From: a virus
Direction: 5' to 3' (one strand)
Virus record (IMG/VR): IMGVR_UViG_3300028920_000202
Coordinates: 1-30,219 of that record
Length of the DNA stretch: 30,219 nucleotides
A program made the translations under genes and the position numbers. The notes beneath the pieces were generated by a model that was not told the origin of the DNA, did not search any database, and saw nothing but the letters and a program-made list of their open reading frames with translations. How positions within the stretch are numbered: the stretch's first letter is position 1; the number at the start of each line of letters is the position of its first letter. Shown piece after piece: positions 813 to 8,782 of this stretch.

Positions 813-894
813 AAGCCCTCCGGGTTGTGGTTTGATGAATATATACGACTTCCAGATATTTTTCAAACAGGTCACACGATCCGGGGGGTTTTTT
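813..894 (+). terminator. Leader hairpin with U-tract, candidate attenuator of the replication gene
   Basis: The outer stem pairs AAGCCCTCCGG (813-823) with CCGGGGGGTTT (881-891), including two G-U pairs, and runs into six T (889-894), as in an intrinsic terminator. Inside, TGTG+GTTTGA (826-835) pairs with TCAAAC (863-868) and CACA (873-876) with a four-base AGGT bulge. The apical loop is about 27 nt. The GGAG ribosome binding site of the next gene (898-901) comes directly after the T-run, so the structure could act as an attenuator or riboswitch-like element. Confidence 0.5.
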
Positions 895-906
895 ATTGGA
901 GCGAAG

Positions 907-1629
907 ATGGCAACACAAAGATATATAAGTACAAGTTTTTGGGATGATGAATGGATACAAACATTAGACCCATCAGAGAAATTACTTTATTTGTATTTTA
1001 TGACCAATCCGTTAACTAATATAGCTGGAGTTTATAAAGTAACTGACAAGCGTATAAGTTTTGATACCGGCTTTAATATTGATACAATAAGACATATCAT
1101 GGATAAGTTTAAGAAAGCAGGAAAGGCATACAGAGACGGACAATATATATTATTGCCATCGTGGCCCAAACATCAAAAATGGAAAAATAGAAAAAAAATA
1201 AAAACAGGAATTGATAATTGTCTATCAGAATTACCAGAACACATATTAAATAAACTCAAAAGTATCGGTTATTGCTATGATTTAGATAACTTATATATAA
1301 CTTATGATAACTTATCTGAAGATACGAACTATATAGATACTGATTCTGATATTAATATAGATACAGATATAGATACTGATAAAGAAGTAAAACACAAATA
1401 CGGGGAGTTTAAAAATATCTTATTAACAGACAAAGAAAAAGACAGACTAATATCTGAATACGGACAAGACAAATTCGACAAGGCTATACTTTTCTACTCA
1501 TCCTACAAGGTTGAAAAGGCATACAAAAGCAAAAGCGATAATTTAAGCATGCGTCGTTGGGTGTTCAAGGCTATTGAAGATAAAAAAAGCCAGGGGTTTA
1601 CTAATACAGACAAGTACAAGGATATGTAA
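907..1629 (+). CDS. DnaD-like phage replication initiator
   Basis: This 240-residue protein has a winged-helix-like N-terminal half (pattern FWDDEWIQTLDPSEKLLYLYFMTN, then VYKVTDKRISFDTGF), typical of phage replisome organisers. A low-complexity Asp/Ile/Thr linker (about residues 143-158) follows. The helical C-terminal part ends in a basic helix around SMRRWVFKAIEDK, as in DnaD-like domains. The start is set at ATG 907 because GGAG (898-901) lies 5 nt upstream; an in-frame ATG at 832 would read through the leader hairpin and has no ribosome binding site. It probably binds the repeats inside its own gene and loads a host helicase. No phage helicase or primase is visible, which suggests use of the host replisome. 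Family assignment is by pattern only. Confidence 0.7.
   Translation: MATQRYISTSFWDDEWIQTLDPSEKLLYLYFMTNPLTNIAGVYKVTDKRISFDTGFNIDTIRHIMDKFKKAGKAYRDGQYILLPSWPKHQKWKNRKKIKTGIDNCLSELPEHILNKLKSIGYCYDLDNLYITYDNLSEDTNYIDTDSDINIDTDIDTDKEVKHKYGEFKNILLTDKEKDRLISEYGQDKFDKAILFYSSYKVEKAYKSKSDNLSMRRWVFKAIEDKKSQGFTNTDKYKDM
1286..1315 (+). repeat. Three 9-bp direct repeats ATAACTTAT, origin-like iterons
   Basis: Identical copies lie at 1286-1294, 1297-1305 and 1307-1315. Their starts are 11 and 10 bp apart, so they fall on one face of the helix. They sit inside the linker-coding part of the replication initiator gene, the usual place of phage origins of the lambda O type. Confidence 0.55.
1333..1380 (+). 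repeat. Four tandem 12-bp AT-rich repeats, candidate unwinding element
   Basis: Units at 1333-1344, 1345-1356, 1357-1368 and 1369-1380 follow ATAGATAC(T/A)GAT. Units 1 and 4 are identical, unit 3 differs by one base and unit 2 is diverged. They encode the IDTD-type linker repeats and lie 17 bp beyond the phased 9-mers, as an AT-rich melting region would. Confidence 0.5.
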
Positions 1630-2111
1630 TGAAAGATGTTTCTGAATTTATGAAAAAGATGGTTGAATATTATGGAGCTTTTATTAACGAAAAGGTTGCT
1701 GATTTAATAGCTGAAGAATTGCATTACATTAAACCGACAGACTATGACCGGGTTTTCCGATTTATGATTGAAGAATTTCCGGCAAACTGGAAACCTGACA
1801 TAAAAGCAATAAATGATATTATAAAGAAAAATGGAATTCAAAGATTAAGTAATTCAGGCGGTAAAAAATGTCCTGTGTGTTTTACTATAAACTATTCAAG
1901 CTGTATGTGCTGCCCTAAATGCAAATATGAAAGCAATGACGGTAGCCCGGAAGTATACAGACAATTTTGGAAAGACTGGCAAGCCGGAAAAGTGAAAAGA
2001 TTTGATTCAAAAAAACTTATTCAATTACTGGCCGAAAGTAAAAAGTATAAAGAAGAGGAAGAAGAAAAAGAAAGCCTTAAACAAATGTTATCTAAGGTTA
2101 AGGAGGGATAA
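1629..2111 (+). CDS. Replication-associated protein with zinc ribbon, 160 aa
   Basis: The ATG overlaps the stop of the replication initiator by 1 nt. The first 75 residues are helical and resemble phage replication loader or accessory proteins (FMIEEFPANWKPDIKAINDI pattern, like the N-terminal part of helicase-loader-type proteins). A zinc ribbon follows, with CPVC (about 81-84) and CMCCPKC (about 92-98). The C-terminus is a strongly charged coiled-coil-like tail rich in EEEEEK. Position directly after the initiator supports a role in replisome loading. No Walker A motif is present, so it is not a DnaC-type ATPase. Confidence 0.6.
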   Translation: MKDVSEFMKKMVEYYGAFINEKVADLIAEELHYIKPTDYDRVFRFMIEEFPANWKPDIKAINDIIKKNGIQRLSNSGGKKCPVCFTINYSSCMCCPKCKYESNDGSPEVYRQFWKDWQAGKVKRFDSKKLIQLLAESKKYKEEEEEKESLKQMLSKVKEG

Positions 2112-2503
2112 TGAAAAGAATATTTCATTCGATAGACAAATGGGAAGATAAGAAAAATGGAATGTATAATCATCTTCCACTTGATAATGAATTAATAAAA
2201 AAATGTGTTTATCTGTTAACAAATGATATTTTATTTTTTCAAATTATGAAGCAAGTATGTAAAGAATGGAAAAATGCGGCAGAATCTAATCTTTCTCATA
2301 TAAACAATAATCGAAGAGCATGGCTTGGTAGGGCTTCATGCTGTTATTATATAAATGCTCCTGAAAATATAACACAACATGCATGGATATCAATGACAGA
2401 TAAGCAAAGAGAAAATGCGAATAAAACGGCAGATAAATTTTTAATTTATTGGTATGAAAAATACGAAAAACAATTAAATTTATTCGAGGTAACAAATGCC
2501 TAA
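2111..2503 (+). CDS. Conserved phage protein associated with ibrA/ibrB-like genes, 130 aa
   Basis: The start overlaps the previous stop by 1 nt and follows AAGGAGG (2100-2106). A central block NRRAWLGRASCCYYI followed by APENITQHAW and a helix ending in NKTADKFLIYW resembles a phage family commonly found just upstream of PAPS-reductase/ParB pairs. No function is known to me. It ends with 8 nt overlapping the ibrA-like gene, so the three genes are translationally linked. The cysteine pair (about 76-77) is notable next to a sulfur-chemistry-type partner, but that is inference. Confidence 0.6.
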   Translation: MKRIFHSIDKWEDKKNGMYNHLPLDNELIKKCVYLLTNDILFFQIMKQVCKEWKNAAESNLSHINNNRRAWLGRASCCYYINAPENITQHAWISMTDKQRENANKTADKFLIYWYEKYEKQLNLFEVTNA

Positions 2504-3740
2504 AAAACAGCTAAATATAAATGTTTATGACTCTGCAAAAAAAAGAATAGAATATGTATTTGATAATTTTAATAAAATATATGTGTCCTTTTCTGCAGGT
2601 AAAGATAGCACTACAATGTTGCATTTAGTAGCAAATGAAGCAATCAAAAGGAACAGGAAAATAGGATTATTATTTATCGATTTAGAATCTCAGTATAAAT
2701 TTACGATTGAAAATGCAAAGAATATGTTTGAGTTATATAAAGATATTATTATTCCATTCTGGGTATGTTTGCCTATTCATTTAAGAAATGCTGTATCAGT
2801 ATATGATCCTTTTTGGAAATGTTGGGATATAAAAGAAAAAATAAAATGGGTAAGAGAAGTACCTGATAATGCGATAAATAATATAAATTATTTTCCTTTC
2901 TTTTTTGATGGAATGGAATTTGAAGAATTTGTTCCATTGTTTGGAGAATGGTTTTCTGGTGGCAAAAAAACTGCCTGTTTTGTAGGAATAAGGGCAGATG
3001 AGTCATTAAATAGATTTAGGACAATAGCAAGTAAAACTAAAACTACATTTGAGGGAAACCAATGGACAACAAAAGTAACTGATAATGTTTATAATATATA
3101 TCCAATGTATGATTGGAGAACAAGAGATATATGGATTTATCACGCTAAGAATAGAGATAAGCCATATAATAAATTATATGATATGATGAATATGGCTGGA
3201 TTATCTATACATCAACAGAGAATATGCCAGCCTTATGGAGACGATCAACGAAGAGGTTTGTGGTTGTTTCATTTAATAGAACCAGAAACTTGGGCTAAAG
3301 TAGTTGCAAGGGTGAATGGAGTTAACGGAGGTGCTTTATATATAAAAGAGTCGGGCAATATGACCGGGTATAATAAAATAGAACTTCCGAACGGACATAC
3401 TTGGGAAAGTTTTGCAAAGCTATTATTAGGATCAATGCCACCAAAAACAAGAATACATTTTGAGAATAAGATAATATTATTTATTAAATGGTGGGAAGAA
3501 AAGGCATATCCAAATGGAATACCAGACGTAATAGATCAAATTCTCGAATCAAAAAGAAAAGCGCCTTCGTGGAGACGTATTTGTAAATCATTATTAAGAA
3601 ATGATTATTGGTGTAAGGGGTTGGGGTTTTCACAACACAAAAGTGAAGCATATGAAAAATATTTAAGACTGATGGAAAGACGAAAGAGAGAATGGAATTA
3701 TAATTTATTTGGAGAAGAAAATGAAACAGAGAGCGCATGA
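2496..3740 (+). CDS. IbrA-like protein, PAPS-reductase/ATP-pyrophosphatase family with DUF3440-type C-terminus
   Basis: The 414-residue protein has an N-terminal PP-loop SFSAGKDS (residues 31-38), the signature of adenylating N-type ATP pyrophosphatases such as CysH, CysD and DndC. A second family motif, GIRADESLNRFRT, lies near residue 170. A long C-terminal region (about 260-400) fits the DUF3440 arrangement of IbrA. Known members (IbrA of E. coli) are prophage proteins that act with the ParB-like IbrB and influence eib gene expression; the chemistry is not established. The downstream gene is an IbrB-like protein, which supports the call. The block is more AT-rich than the virion genes, consistent with separate acquisition. 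No Fe-S cysteine motif of assimilatory CysH is evident. Confidence 0.8.
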   Translation: MPKKQLNINVYDSAKKRIEYVFDNFNKIYVSFSAGKDSTTMLHLVANEAIKRNRKIGLLFIDLESQYKFTIENAKNMFELYKDIIIPFWVCLPIHLRNAVSVYDPFWKCWDIKEKIKWVREVPDNAINNINYFPFFFDGMEFEEFVPLFGEWFSGGKKTACFVGIRADESLNRFRTIASKTKTTFEGNQWTTKVTDNVYNIYPMYDWRTRDIWIYHAKNRDKPYNKLYDMMNMAGLSIHQQRICQPYGDDQRRGLWLFHLIEPETWAKVVARVNGVNGGALYIKESGNMTGYNKIELPNGHTWESFAKLLLGSMPPKTRIHFENKIILFIKWWEEKAYPNGIPDVIDQILESKRKAPSWRRICKSLLRNDYWCKGLGFSQHKSEAYEKYLRLMERRKREWNYNLFGEENETESA

Positions 3741-4440
3741 ATTGATTGATATGATTTATCAAGAAAATAATGAAAATAAAAAAATAGAATATTTAAATGA
3801 AATAAGAGAGATATTACACAACGAAAGTCCACTAAAAACAGAGCCTGTTGATTGTGTGTTGTGGGTTAAAAATGAAAAAGTGCAAGCAAATGATTATAAC
3901 CCCAATAATGTGGCTCCTCCGGAAATGGAATTATTAGAACTATCAGTGTTGAATGACGGATACACACAACCAATAGTAACATTCAATGAAGAAGGTATTT
4001 ATGAGGTCGTTGACGGATTTCATAGAAATAGAATTGGTCAAGAATCTGAAAAAATAAAAACAAGAATAAAAGGATATTTGCCTATAGTTAAAATAAATCA
4101 AGATCGTGAAAATAAAAGTGATAGAATAGCAGCAACAATACGACACAACAGGGCAAGAGGAAAACACCAGGTTTCAGCCATGAGTGAAATAGTTTTAGAA
4201 TTAAAAAGAAGAAACTGGAGTGATAAGAAAATAGGAAAAGAATTAGGAATGGATTCTGATGAGGTTTTGAGATTAACACAAATAAGCGGGCTTGCAGAAA
4301 TGTTTTCAGATCAAGAATTTTCAATGGCTTGGGAAGCAATAGATTTAAATGATGACGATTATAAATCAGAAATACAAGAATTAGAAATACAATATCAGGA
4401 AGAAGAAACAAAAGAACGTGAGGCATGGAGAAAAGGATGA
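3721..4440 (+). CDS. IbrB-like ParB/Srx-fold protein
   Basis: This 239-residue protein carries the ParB/sulfiredoxin-fold signature: GFHRNR (residues 99-104, the GxHR box), and RHNRARGKH (141-149), the second conserved box of phage ParB-like proteins. An HTH follows (about 165-190, KKIGKELGMDSDEVLRLTQI). The start is set at ATG 3721 because GGAG (3711-3714) lies 6 nt upstream; a TTG at 3709 is in frame but unsupported. It overlaps the ibrA-like gene by 20 nt. IbrA-IbrB pairs are known from E. coli prophages. ParB-fold proteins can be CTPases, nucleases or ATP-dependent kinases of the Srx type; which applies here is unknown. Confidence 0.78.
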   Translation: MKQRAHELIDMIYQENNENKKIEYLNEIREILHNESPLKTEPVDCVLWVKNEKVQANDYNPNNVAPPEMELLELSVLNDGYTQPIVTFNEEGIYEVVDGFHRNRIGQESEKIKTRIKGYLPIVKINQDRENKSDRIAATIRHNRARGKHQVSAMSEIVLELKRRNWSDKKIGKELGMDSDEVLRLTQISGLAEMFSDQEFSMAWEAIDLNDDDYKSEIQELEIQYQEEETKEREAWRKG

Positions 4441-4456
4441 CAGATAAGGGGATAGT

Positions 4457-5131
4457 ATGGGATTAAATAAATCAAAGGGTAATATGTATGATTTTGTAAC
4501 GCACACCTGGAACACAATAAAGGGGCAGTGTTATCATGATTGTTCTTATTGCTATATGAAACGCTGGGGGAAATTAAAACCTGTTAGATTTGATGAAAAT
4601 GAATTAGAAACAGATTTAGGAAAAGACAATTTTATATTTGTTGGCAGCAGTTGCGATATGTTCAACGAAATGATACCGGCTGACTGGATCAGAAATACGT
4701 TGATTAAATGTAATTCGTATAATAATAAATATCTTTTTCAGAGCAAAAATTGTGAAAGAATGATTAGATGGATAGAATGGGGATATTTAGATAAAAATAA
4801 AACCTTATTATGCGCAACACTGGAAACGAACAAGTGGTATAGAAATATAATGAATAAATCTGATATGCCATGGCAAAGGGCATTTGACTTTAAATATTAC
4901 AACGGGAAAAAATATATAACAATTGAACCGATCATGGAATTTGATTTAGATAAATTTGTAAAAATGATAAAGGAATGTGAACCGATACAGGTAAACATTG
5001 GAGCCGATAGTGGTAATAATAATTTACCAGAACCATCACCAGAAAAAATACTTGAATTAATTCAAGAACTGGATCAATTCACTAAAGTAAATATAAAACC
5101 TAATTTAAAAAGGATTATGATAAGGGGATAG
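4457..5131 (+). CDS. Radical-SAM-like phage protein, Gp37/Gp68 (DUF5131) type
   Basis: CYHDCSYC (residues 25-32) is a CxxxCxxC cluster that would ligate the 4Fe-4S centre of radical SAM enzymes. It follows the WNTIKGQC approach strand seen in the phage Gp37/Gp68 family. The later strands FIFVGSSCDMF, TLLCATLETN, KYITIEPIM and VNIGADSG fit the remaining barrel. At 224 residues it is compact. The ribosome binding site AAGGGGATAG-T-ATG is nearly identical to that of the following gene. The substrate is unknown. Position after the IbrA/IbrB pair suggests joint action, for example on nucleotide or DNA modification, but this is inference. QueE is an alternative of similar size; the surrounding motifs do not favour it. 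Confidence 0.7.
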   Translation: MGLNKSKGNMYDFVTHTWNTIKGQCYHDCSYCYMKRWGKLKPVRFDENELETDLGKDNFIFVGSSCDMFNEMIPADWIRNTLIKCNSYNNKYLFQSKNCERMIRWIEWGYLDKNKTLLCATLETNKWYRNIMNKSDMPWQRAFDFKYYNGKKYITIEPIMEFDLDKFVKMIKECEPIQVNIGADSGNNNLPEPSPEKILELIQELDQFTKVNIKPNLKRIMIRG

Positions 5132-8230: not shown

Positions 8231-8343
8231 AAATATTTTGCCTGGTAGTAGCAATATTTTTTATAGCATTCACTTTTTTTCTGGGTGCTGTATGTATTAC
8301 GATAGTAAAGATTTTATTTGAGGGGGTTATGAATGGCTTATAA
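8227..8343 (+). CDS. 38-residue membrane peptide
   Basis: ATG 8227 overlaps the preceding TGA (ATGA). Almost the whole peptide is hydrophobic (residues 3-32, KIFCLVVAIFFIAFTFFLG then AVCITIVKILF), predicting one long or two short membrane segments. It overlaps the next gene (ATG 8333) by 11 nt. The GAGGGGG inside its end provides the next ribosome binding site. A lipobox is not convincing. Function unknown. Confidence 0.5.
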   Translation: MKIFCLVVAIFFIAFTFFLGAVCITIVKILFEGVMNGL

Positions 8344-8782
8344 ACCAACACAAGCACAGTTAATGCAGGACTTACTTGACCGTAAAAAAATGCGTCAAAC
8401 ACGGTGGTCGAATAGGAGTATAGCAATTTATCTCTGTCCTATACGGGGAGAAATAAGATACTGGCATATTCCAGAAGATGATGAACAACACAGTTTAGCA
8501 ATTAATAAGTTAAAATCAGCAGACGGGCATATCGAATGGGAAGAATACAAAGATCCGGAAGACTTCGGCCCAATAACAGAGGAAGAACTTGAAGGGGCGA
8601 GAACCCGGCTGAAGCAACCAAAACAAACAAAGCCGGTTATTGATTGGGAGCCAGCAAGAGCCTATCCTATAAGTTTAGCAATAACCAAAAATGATAATAC
8701 TGTTAATTCATTTAATCACTTGGAAAATGGAATTAGTCAAATAATAAACTGGATAAACAACCATGAAGAAAGTAATGGTTAG
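8333..8782 (+). CDS. Hypothetical protein, 149 aa
   Basis: ATG 8333 follows GAGGGGG (8320-8326). The N-terminus is helical and basic (AQLMQDLLDRKKMRQTRW), followed by a strand-rich acidic middle (SIAIYLCPIRGEIRYWHIPEDDE) and a linker rich in Glu, Lys and Gln. The C-terminal 40 residues end in a helix (LENGISQIINWINNHEES). No catalytic motif is visible. It is the largest protein of the small-gene cluster and stays unassigned. Confidence 0.6.
   Translation: MAYKPTQAQLMQDLLDRKKMRQTRWSNRSIAIYLCPIRGEIRYWHIPEDDEQHSLAINKLKSADGHIEWEEYKDPEDFGPITEEELEGARTRLKQPKQTKPVIDWEPARAYPISLAITKNDNTVNSFNHLENGISQIINWINNHEESNG

Follow-up and report, generated by a model that had tools for sequence, protein, structure and literature searches.

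A near-obligate, exchangeable third partner accompanies the IbrA-IbrB gene pair in phage genomes

Escherichia coli carries the pairs IbrA/IbrB and YbdN/YbdM, in which two core proteins are encoded by adjacent and overlapping genes. Comparable pairings occur in DNA modification, where the DndC/DndB system pairs an enzyme with a ParB-superfamily protein (PMC10853773) and where DpdB, a ParB-like ATPase in DNA 7-deazaguanine insertion, is paired with the DNA-modifying DpdA (PMC12839542). Here we describe an IbrA-IbrB locus in the virus record IMGVR_UViG_3300028920_000202, the whole 30,219-base stretch of which was analysed and is called the window below. The phage pair is known and common but unexplained; what is new is a third partner, near-obligate and exchangeable, which in the window is a small protein that we call S130. 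The open-licence PMC literature, of which coverage was partial, yielded no description of such a partner for IbrA-IbrB. As in the E. coli pairs, the two core genes of the window overlap (by 20 nucleotides, given an IbrB start at ATG 3721), and S130 overlaps IbrA by 8 nucleotides, the IbrA ATG lying within the end of S130. The three genes are as follows.

2111..2503, + strand: S130, 130 amino acids, a predicted all-helical third subunit of no known family and, within this branch, an obligate companion of the IbrA-IbrB genes

2496..3740, + strand: IbrA-like PP-loop enzyme (DUF3440; phrog_2302), identified by its DUF3440, PAPS_reduct and phrog_2302 matches

3721..4440, + strand: IbrB-like ParB/Srx-fold protein with a C-terminal helix-turn-helix (phrog_2159), for which the mechanical open reading frame start is TTG 3709

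An earlier, sequence-only reading of this DNA had joined to these three genes a radical S-adenosylmethionine (SAM) gene that starts 16 nucleotides after the end of IbrB, and had proposed a cassette of four linked genes. All four open reading frames are real and abut one another on the + strand, and the proposed family types IbrA, IbrB and CxxxCxxC radical-SAM were seen by profile matches. The radical-SAM protein, IbrA and S130 each served as the query for a scan of IMG/VR; loci were picked by similarity to the window, with at most the best 80 taken per scan, and many of them are contig fragments. Linkage far above chance was borne out for S130, IbrA and IbrB, but not for the radical-SAM gene, which is taken up below. 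Loci seeded with IbrA carried S130 in 75 of 80 cases and an adjacent IbrB in 79 of 80, while those seeded with S130 carried IbrA in 77 of 77 and IbrB in 76 of 77, the remaining one ending at a contig end. Additionally, S130 was found in 4 of 15 bacterial genomes with an IbrA locus, each time on the same contig as that locus. Once near-copies were removed, 82 distinct loci were left. Their gene orders are B-S-A, S-A-B and A-B-S, and in every case the three genes share a strand. At least nine changes of order are needed on the IbrA tree and the genes are still adjacent, so the three stay together through rearrangement. That S130, IbrA and IbrB constitute a co-inherited three-gene module is well supported.

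Recurrent neighbours of the module include an ERF recombinase, NinG, a ResIII helicase and HNH and VRR nucleases; none exceeds 22 of the 82 loci, and a further conserved neighbour as fourth component was rejected on this count. The module is also present in the cultured phages Nebkiss, Gaia, Mwe-JY13 (Microcystis), Amjad_SA (Pseudomonas) and XCL1123 (Pseudoalteromonas), and in the Mycobacterium phage Nebkiss (L214:2405-5393) a GIY-YIG gene lies inside it. In some loci two of the genes are joined. In L233 and L234, and likewise in the viral loci L211/L212, one open reading frame of 377-382 amino acids encodes a complete IbrB with a complete S130 behind it, and these fusions are intact in independent assemblies. 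Because the two proteins are fused in three distinct elements, IbrB and S130 probably touch.

Not every IbrA-IbrB pair is accompanied by S130. Ten S130-less genome and phage records encode another small protein, BP, which is typically 125-147 amino acids long and usually overlaps the start of IbrA. BP belongs to a beta-rich-looking, unannotated family of about 130 amino acids (phrog_26647, of unknown function), and in L224 (4642-5025) and 22 further loci it consistently adjoins IbrA-IbrB, with S130 absent from all of them. A scan with a single BP protein found no relatives, whereas an alignment-based one did; the BP profile recovered 13 loci in IMG/VR, with IbrA and IbrB in all 13 and S130 in none. 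A third partner type is an SNF2-like helicase (Pfam SNF2-rel_dom and Helicase_C), encoded just upstream of IbrA-IbrB in Streptococcus, Lactobacillus and Flavobacterium phages and in L134/L135. A tally over 111 distinct loci gives S130 as the partner in 77, BP in 16 and the helicase in 7, with none in 11, and two partners never occur in one locus (0/111). Mapping the partner label onto the tree takes 14 changes, where 3 would be the minimum, and partners have therefore been exchanged or lost repeatedly. The class without a partner includes enterobacterial YbdNM-like pairs and some recent losses. One apparent member was ruled out as a true S130-less locus: in L094 (413-1111) S130 is cut to a 22-amino-acid remnant just before IbrA and beside an HNH-like reading frame, which suggests a recent loss, perhaps via insertion. 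In the bacterial genome locus L278 (2500-6400), a divergent IbrB and IbrA flank a DPPW-type putative N6 DNA methylase (PF01555 just under its cut-off), which may be another partner type.

S130 itself was ruled out as a known domain. Searches of Pfam and PHROG gave no credible Pfam or named PHROG match, only chance-level ones such as SdrG_C_C at 0.0026, and the unnamed phrog_17463 was matched by 5 of 59 S130 members (best 5.5e-5). The AlphaFold2 model is all-helical with a predicted local distance difference test (pLDDT) score of 94.3. Compared with the PDB by Foldseek it gave no significant fold match, and a second look with VIA reached a best Z of 4.5, below the noise level for helical proteins. 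The only BFVD entry is A0A649V0K8, which is unnamed there. The sequence-only reading had described a small Cys-containing partner; S130 is indeed a conserved partner of IbrA-IbrB, but its cysteines lie outside the 90%-conserved positions.

We give a probability of about one half to the reading in which S130-IbrA-IbrB acts as one functional unit, probably a complex, that joins an ATP-activating enzyme, a director and a swappable adaptor on nucleic acid. IbrA, as a canonical PP-loop ATP pyrophosphatase and not a sulfate-assimilation reductase, would activate a substrate with ATP to give an adenylated intermediate, while IbrB, with its DGxHR-type ParB/Srx domain and helix-turn-helix, would bind nucleotide and DNA and direct IbrA. 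S130 would dock on the C-terminal side of IbrB as an adaptor or specificity subunit, a role that in other lineages would be filled by the unrelated, beta-rich BP or by the SNF2-like DNA translocase. The module sits in the early, replication-type region of the window. Its likely target is nucleic acid, for which DNA of the phage or of the host in early replication is the most plausible candidate. The outcome would be DNA modification or licensing or, for E. coli IbrAB, altered prophage gene expression.

IbrA consists of a PAPS_reduct domain (PF01507, 3e-14) followed by DUF3440 (PF11922, 1e-35, 123.7 bits against a cut-off of 25), and matches phrog_2302 at 6e-87. No solved relatives were found by sequence. 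Its AlphaFold2 model has a good core and low-confidence C-terminal parts (mean pLDDT 75.5), and the solved folds nearest to the core are CysH, FAD synthase and CysD, the small subunit of ATP sulfurylase. IbrA thus shares an adenine-nucleotide alpha-hydrolase core with CysH, the 3'-phosphoadenosine 5'-phosphosulfate (PAPS) reductase, but it has an extra DUF3440 domain and a different set of motifs. Among 111 distinct relatives the ATP-pyrophosphatase loop S[GA]GKD[ST] is kept in 107 and GxRxxES in all, while the CysH catalytic motif ECG[LIM]H is found in none, the window included. Nor does IbrA reach the CysH families TIGR02057 (27.7 bits against 254.2) and TIGR00434 (25.7 against 165.1). Because the loop is kept and ECGLH is missing, IbrA is predicted to adenylate some substrate rather than to reduce PAPS, and on the same two motifs the usual "cysH" label for phage IbrA appears doubtful. 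An intact ATP-pyrophosphatase loop is not expected in CysH, the opposite of IbrA. The literature widely treats the PAPS-reductase genes of phages as auxiliary metabolic genes (e.g. PMC8319345, PMC10434257), and CysH is among the nearest folds. We nevertheless regard it as quite improbable that IbrA is a phage CysH boosting sulfate assimilation with incidental neighbours: its motif pattern is the reverse of that enzyme's, and such a role would not explain why IbrA is constantly linked to a ParB/Srx protein and to DNA-type partners.

DNA-modification systems offer other comparisons. DndC/DndB phosphorothioation likewise combines a PP-loop PAPS-reductase-like enzyme with a ParB-superfamily protein, and IbrA has a Cys363/Cys373 pair that is mostly conserved (92/111 and 98/111). 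However, the match of IbrA to the DndC equivalog is weak (E 7.5e-6) and, at 25.1 bits, does not reach the cut-off of 290.4, and none of DndA, DndD and DndE was seen among the recurrent neighbours of the module. DpdA/DpdB shares the pairing of a DNA-modifying enzyme with a ParB-like ATPase, but no tRNA-guanine transglycosylase (DpdA) homologue was seen with the module, whose catalytic partner is the PP-loop enzyme.

The start of IbrB is likely ATG 3721, behind GGAGAAG, rather than TTG 3709. IbrB matches phrog_2159 at 3e-70 and falls short of Pfam ParB_N (6e-4, 20.2 bits, cut-off 26.3), and a sequence comparison with solved structures gave ParB at 0.023. It is a divergent ParB/Srx protein, assigned to the IbrB type by PHROG and context. 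The ParB/Srx nucleotide-binding signature DGxHR (DGFHR here) is present in 109 of 110 IbrB relatives and RHNxARGxH in 108 of 110. Enterobacterial-type loci (L276, L277 and phage PhiR5_2) match the IbrA profile at E ~1e-148 and the IbrB profile at E ~1e-84. These E. coli-type pairs differ from the phage module in having no S130, BP or helicase alongside, and they occur in a prophage or, in L276 and L277, next to a LysR-type regulator. An alternative account is a transcriptional co-activator module. IbrB would be its ParB-like DNA-binding regulator, IbrA would either provide a signal derived from a nucleotide or modify IbrB, and the target would be set by S130, BP or the helicase, the nucleic acid being left chemically unchanged. 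Enhanced expression of Eib is credited to E. coli ibrB (Sandt 2002, as cited in PMC7649339), the LysR regulator that adjoins the ybdNM operon represses it (PMC9068703), and IbrB has both a helix-turn-helix and a ParB-like domain. We nevertheless think this account somewhat unlikely, since a canonical pyrophosphatase site in nearly all members would be odd for a plain regulator and the SNF2-like motors found in the partner position suggest that the module works on DNA.

Another alternative is a toxin-antitoxin or conflict module, in which IbrA-IbrB (or IbrB as an NTPase or nuclease) would be toxic or nucleotide-depleting and the swappable partner would be an immunity or timing factor. TASmania lists a Listeria ParB-DUF3440 pair as a candidate toxin-antitoxin system by guilt by association (PMC7020466), ParB/Srx proteins can be nucleases or NTPases (PMC10853773), and small, fast-varying, mutually exclusive partners that overlap the enzyme gene suit an antidote. 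The 11 of 111 loci without any partner speak against it, as do the S130-IbrB fusion, which would be unusual for an antidote, and the helicase, which is no antidote. We judge such a module improbable.

Several points weigh against a nucleic-acid-directed unit of IbrA, IbrB and a third partner. There is no direct evidence of DNA or RNA modification, and no modified-precursor genes travel with the triad. The E. coli phenotype cited in PMC7649339, eib activation, is regulatory. A third partner is not universally needed, since none lies near the E. coli-type YbdN-YbdM and IbrA-IbrB pairs. The IbrB-S130 fusions all fall in one clade of the IbrA tree and may derive from a single event, and the early-region placement of the module may merely reflect where accessory genes are placed.

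The radical-SAM gene is contiguous with the module and lies outside it.

4457..5131, + strand: radical-SAM protein near DUF5131 (phage Gp37/Gp68-like), with CxxxCxxC at C25-C29-C32

The protein shares the CxxxCxxC and GNMY..THTWN motifs of DUF5131, but it is shorter, stays under the Pfam cut-off (4e-6, 26.9 against 28.9 bits; Radical_SAM, at 2e-5, is also just under its cut-off) and is not linked to IbrA-IbrB. No solved relatives were found by sequence, and no mention of DUF5131 was found in the open-licence PMC literature, where DUF3440 is named in two papers. A four-gene cassette with the radical-SAM enzyme in the same pathway has in its favour the contiguity in the window and one locus, L054, where a 36%-identical radical-SAM gene directly follows the triad. 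That locus is the only one of 80 IbrA loci with a radical-SAM relative within 6 kb. The 52 radical-SAM-seeded loci contained no S130 and no IbrB, and one had a divergent IbrA-like reading frame. Across whole records, DUF3440 was present in 2 of 49 radical-SAM records and, in the other direction, 2 of 50 triad records matched the radical-SAM profile; L054, one of these two, is itself part of that profile. No gene of any kind is conserved beside the radical-SAM gene; its compact family of about 220 amino acids, near DUF5131 (window 4457-5131 and L002-L053), occurs alone in many phages as an accessory gene. On these reciprocal and whole-record surveys its membership of the cassette was rejected, and a shared pathway is highly improbable: the gene is a chance neighbour, an independent accessory gene. 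Of the two observations that the sequence-only reading had named as refuting it, the lack of radical-SAM co-occurrence with the pair elsewhere is thus essentially borne out. The DNA modification that the sequence-only reading had drawn from this enzyme falls with it, because the gene is unlinked and without conserved neighbours. Modification of nucleic acid may still be considered on other grounds, namely the intact pyrophosphatase loop, the DGxHR ParB/Srx partner and the helicase partners.

By gene content the window reads as a tailed-phage genome fragment. Its + strand order runs from a DnaD-like loader through the small and large terminase, portal, head morphogenesis and major head proteins to the tape measure, and no tRNA or Rfam elements were found in it. 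A 149-amino-acid reading frame at 8333-8782, upstream of the terminase, is without a PHROG match. The DnaD-like gene lies upstream of the module and places it in the early replication region.

832..1629, + strand: DnaD-like helicase loader or replisome organizer (phrog_1701, 1.9e-21)

For the IbrA-IbrB family, it is possible, and we suggest it tentatively, that the pair is the core of widespread, modular ATP-dependent DNA-modifying or licensing machines of phages, with at least three unrelated swapped subunits (S130, BP and SNF2-like), which would carry out a new nucleic-acid modification unrelated to sulfate assimilation. For at least the IbrA-type phage genes called PAPS reductase or cysH, the sulfur-metabolism reading is doubtful, given the missing reductase motif and the fixed ParB/Srx module. 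How IbrA-IbrB acts has been a puzzle for roughly 20 years, and the module opens it to testing, as a missing subunit is named, natural fusions are available and a complex is predicted.

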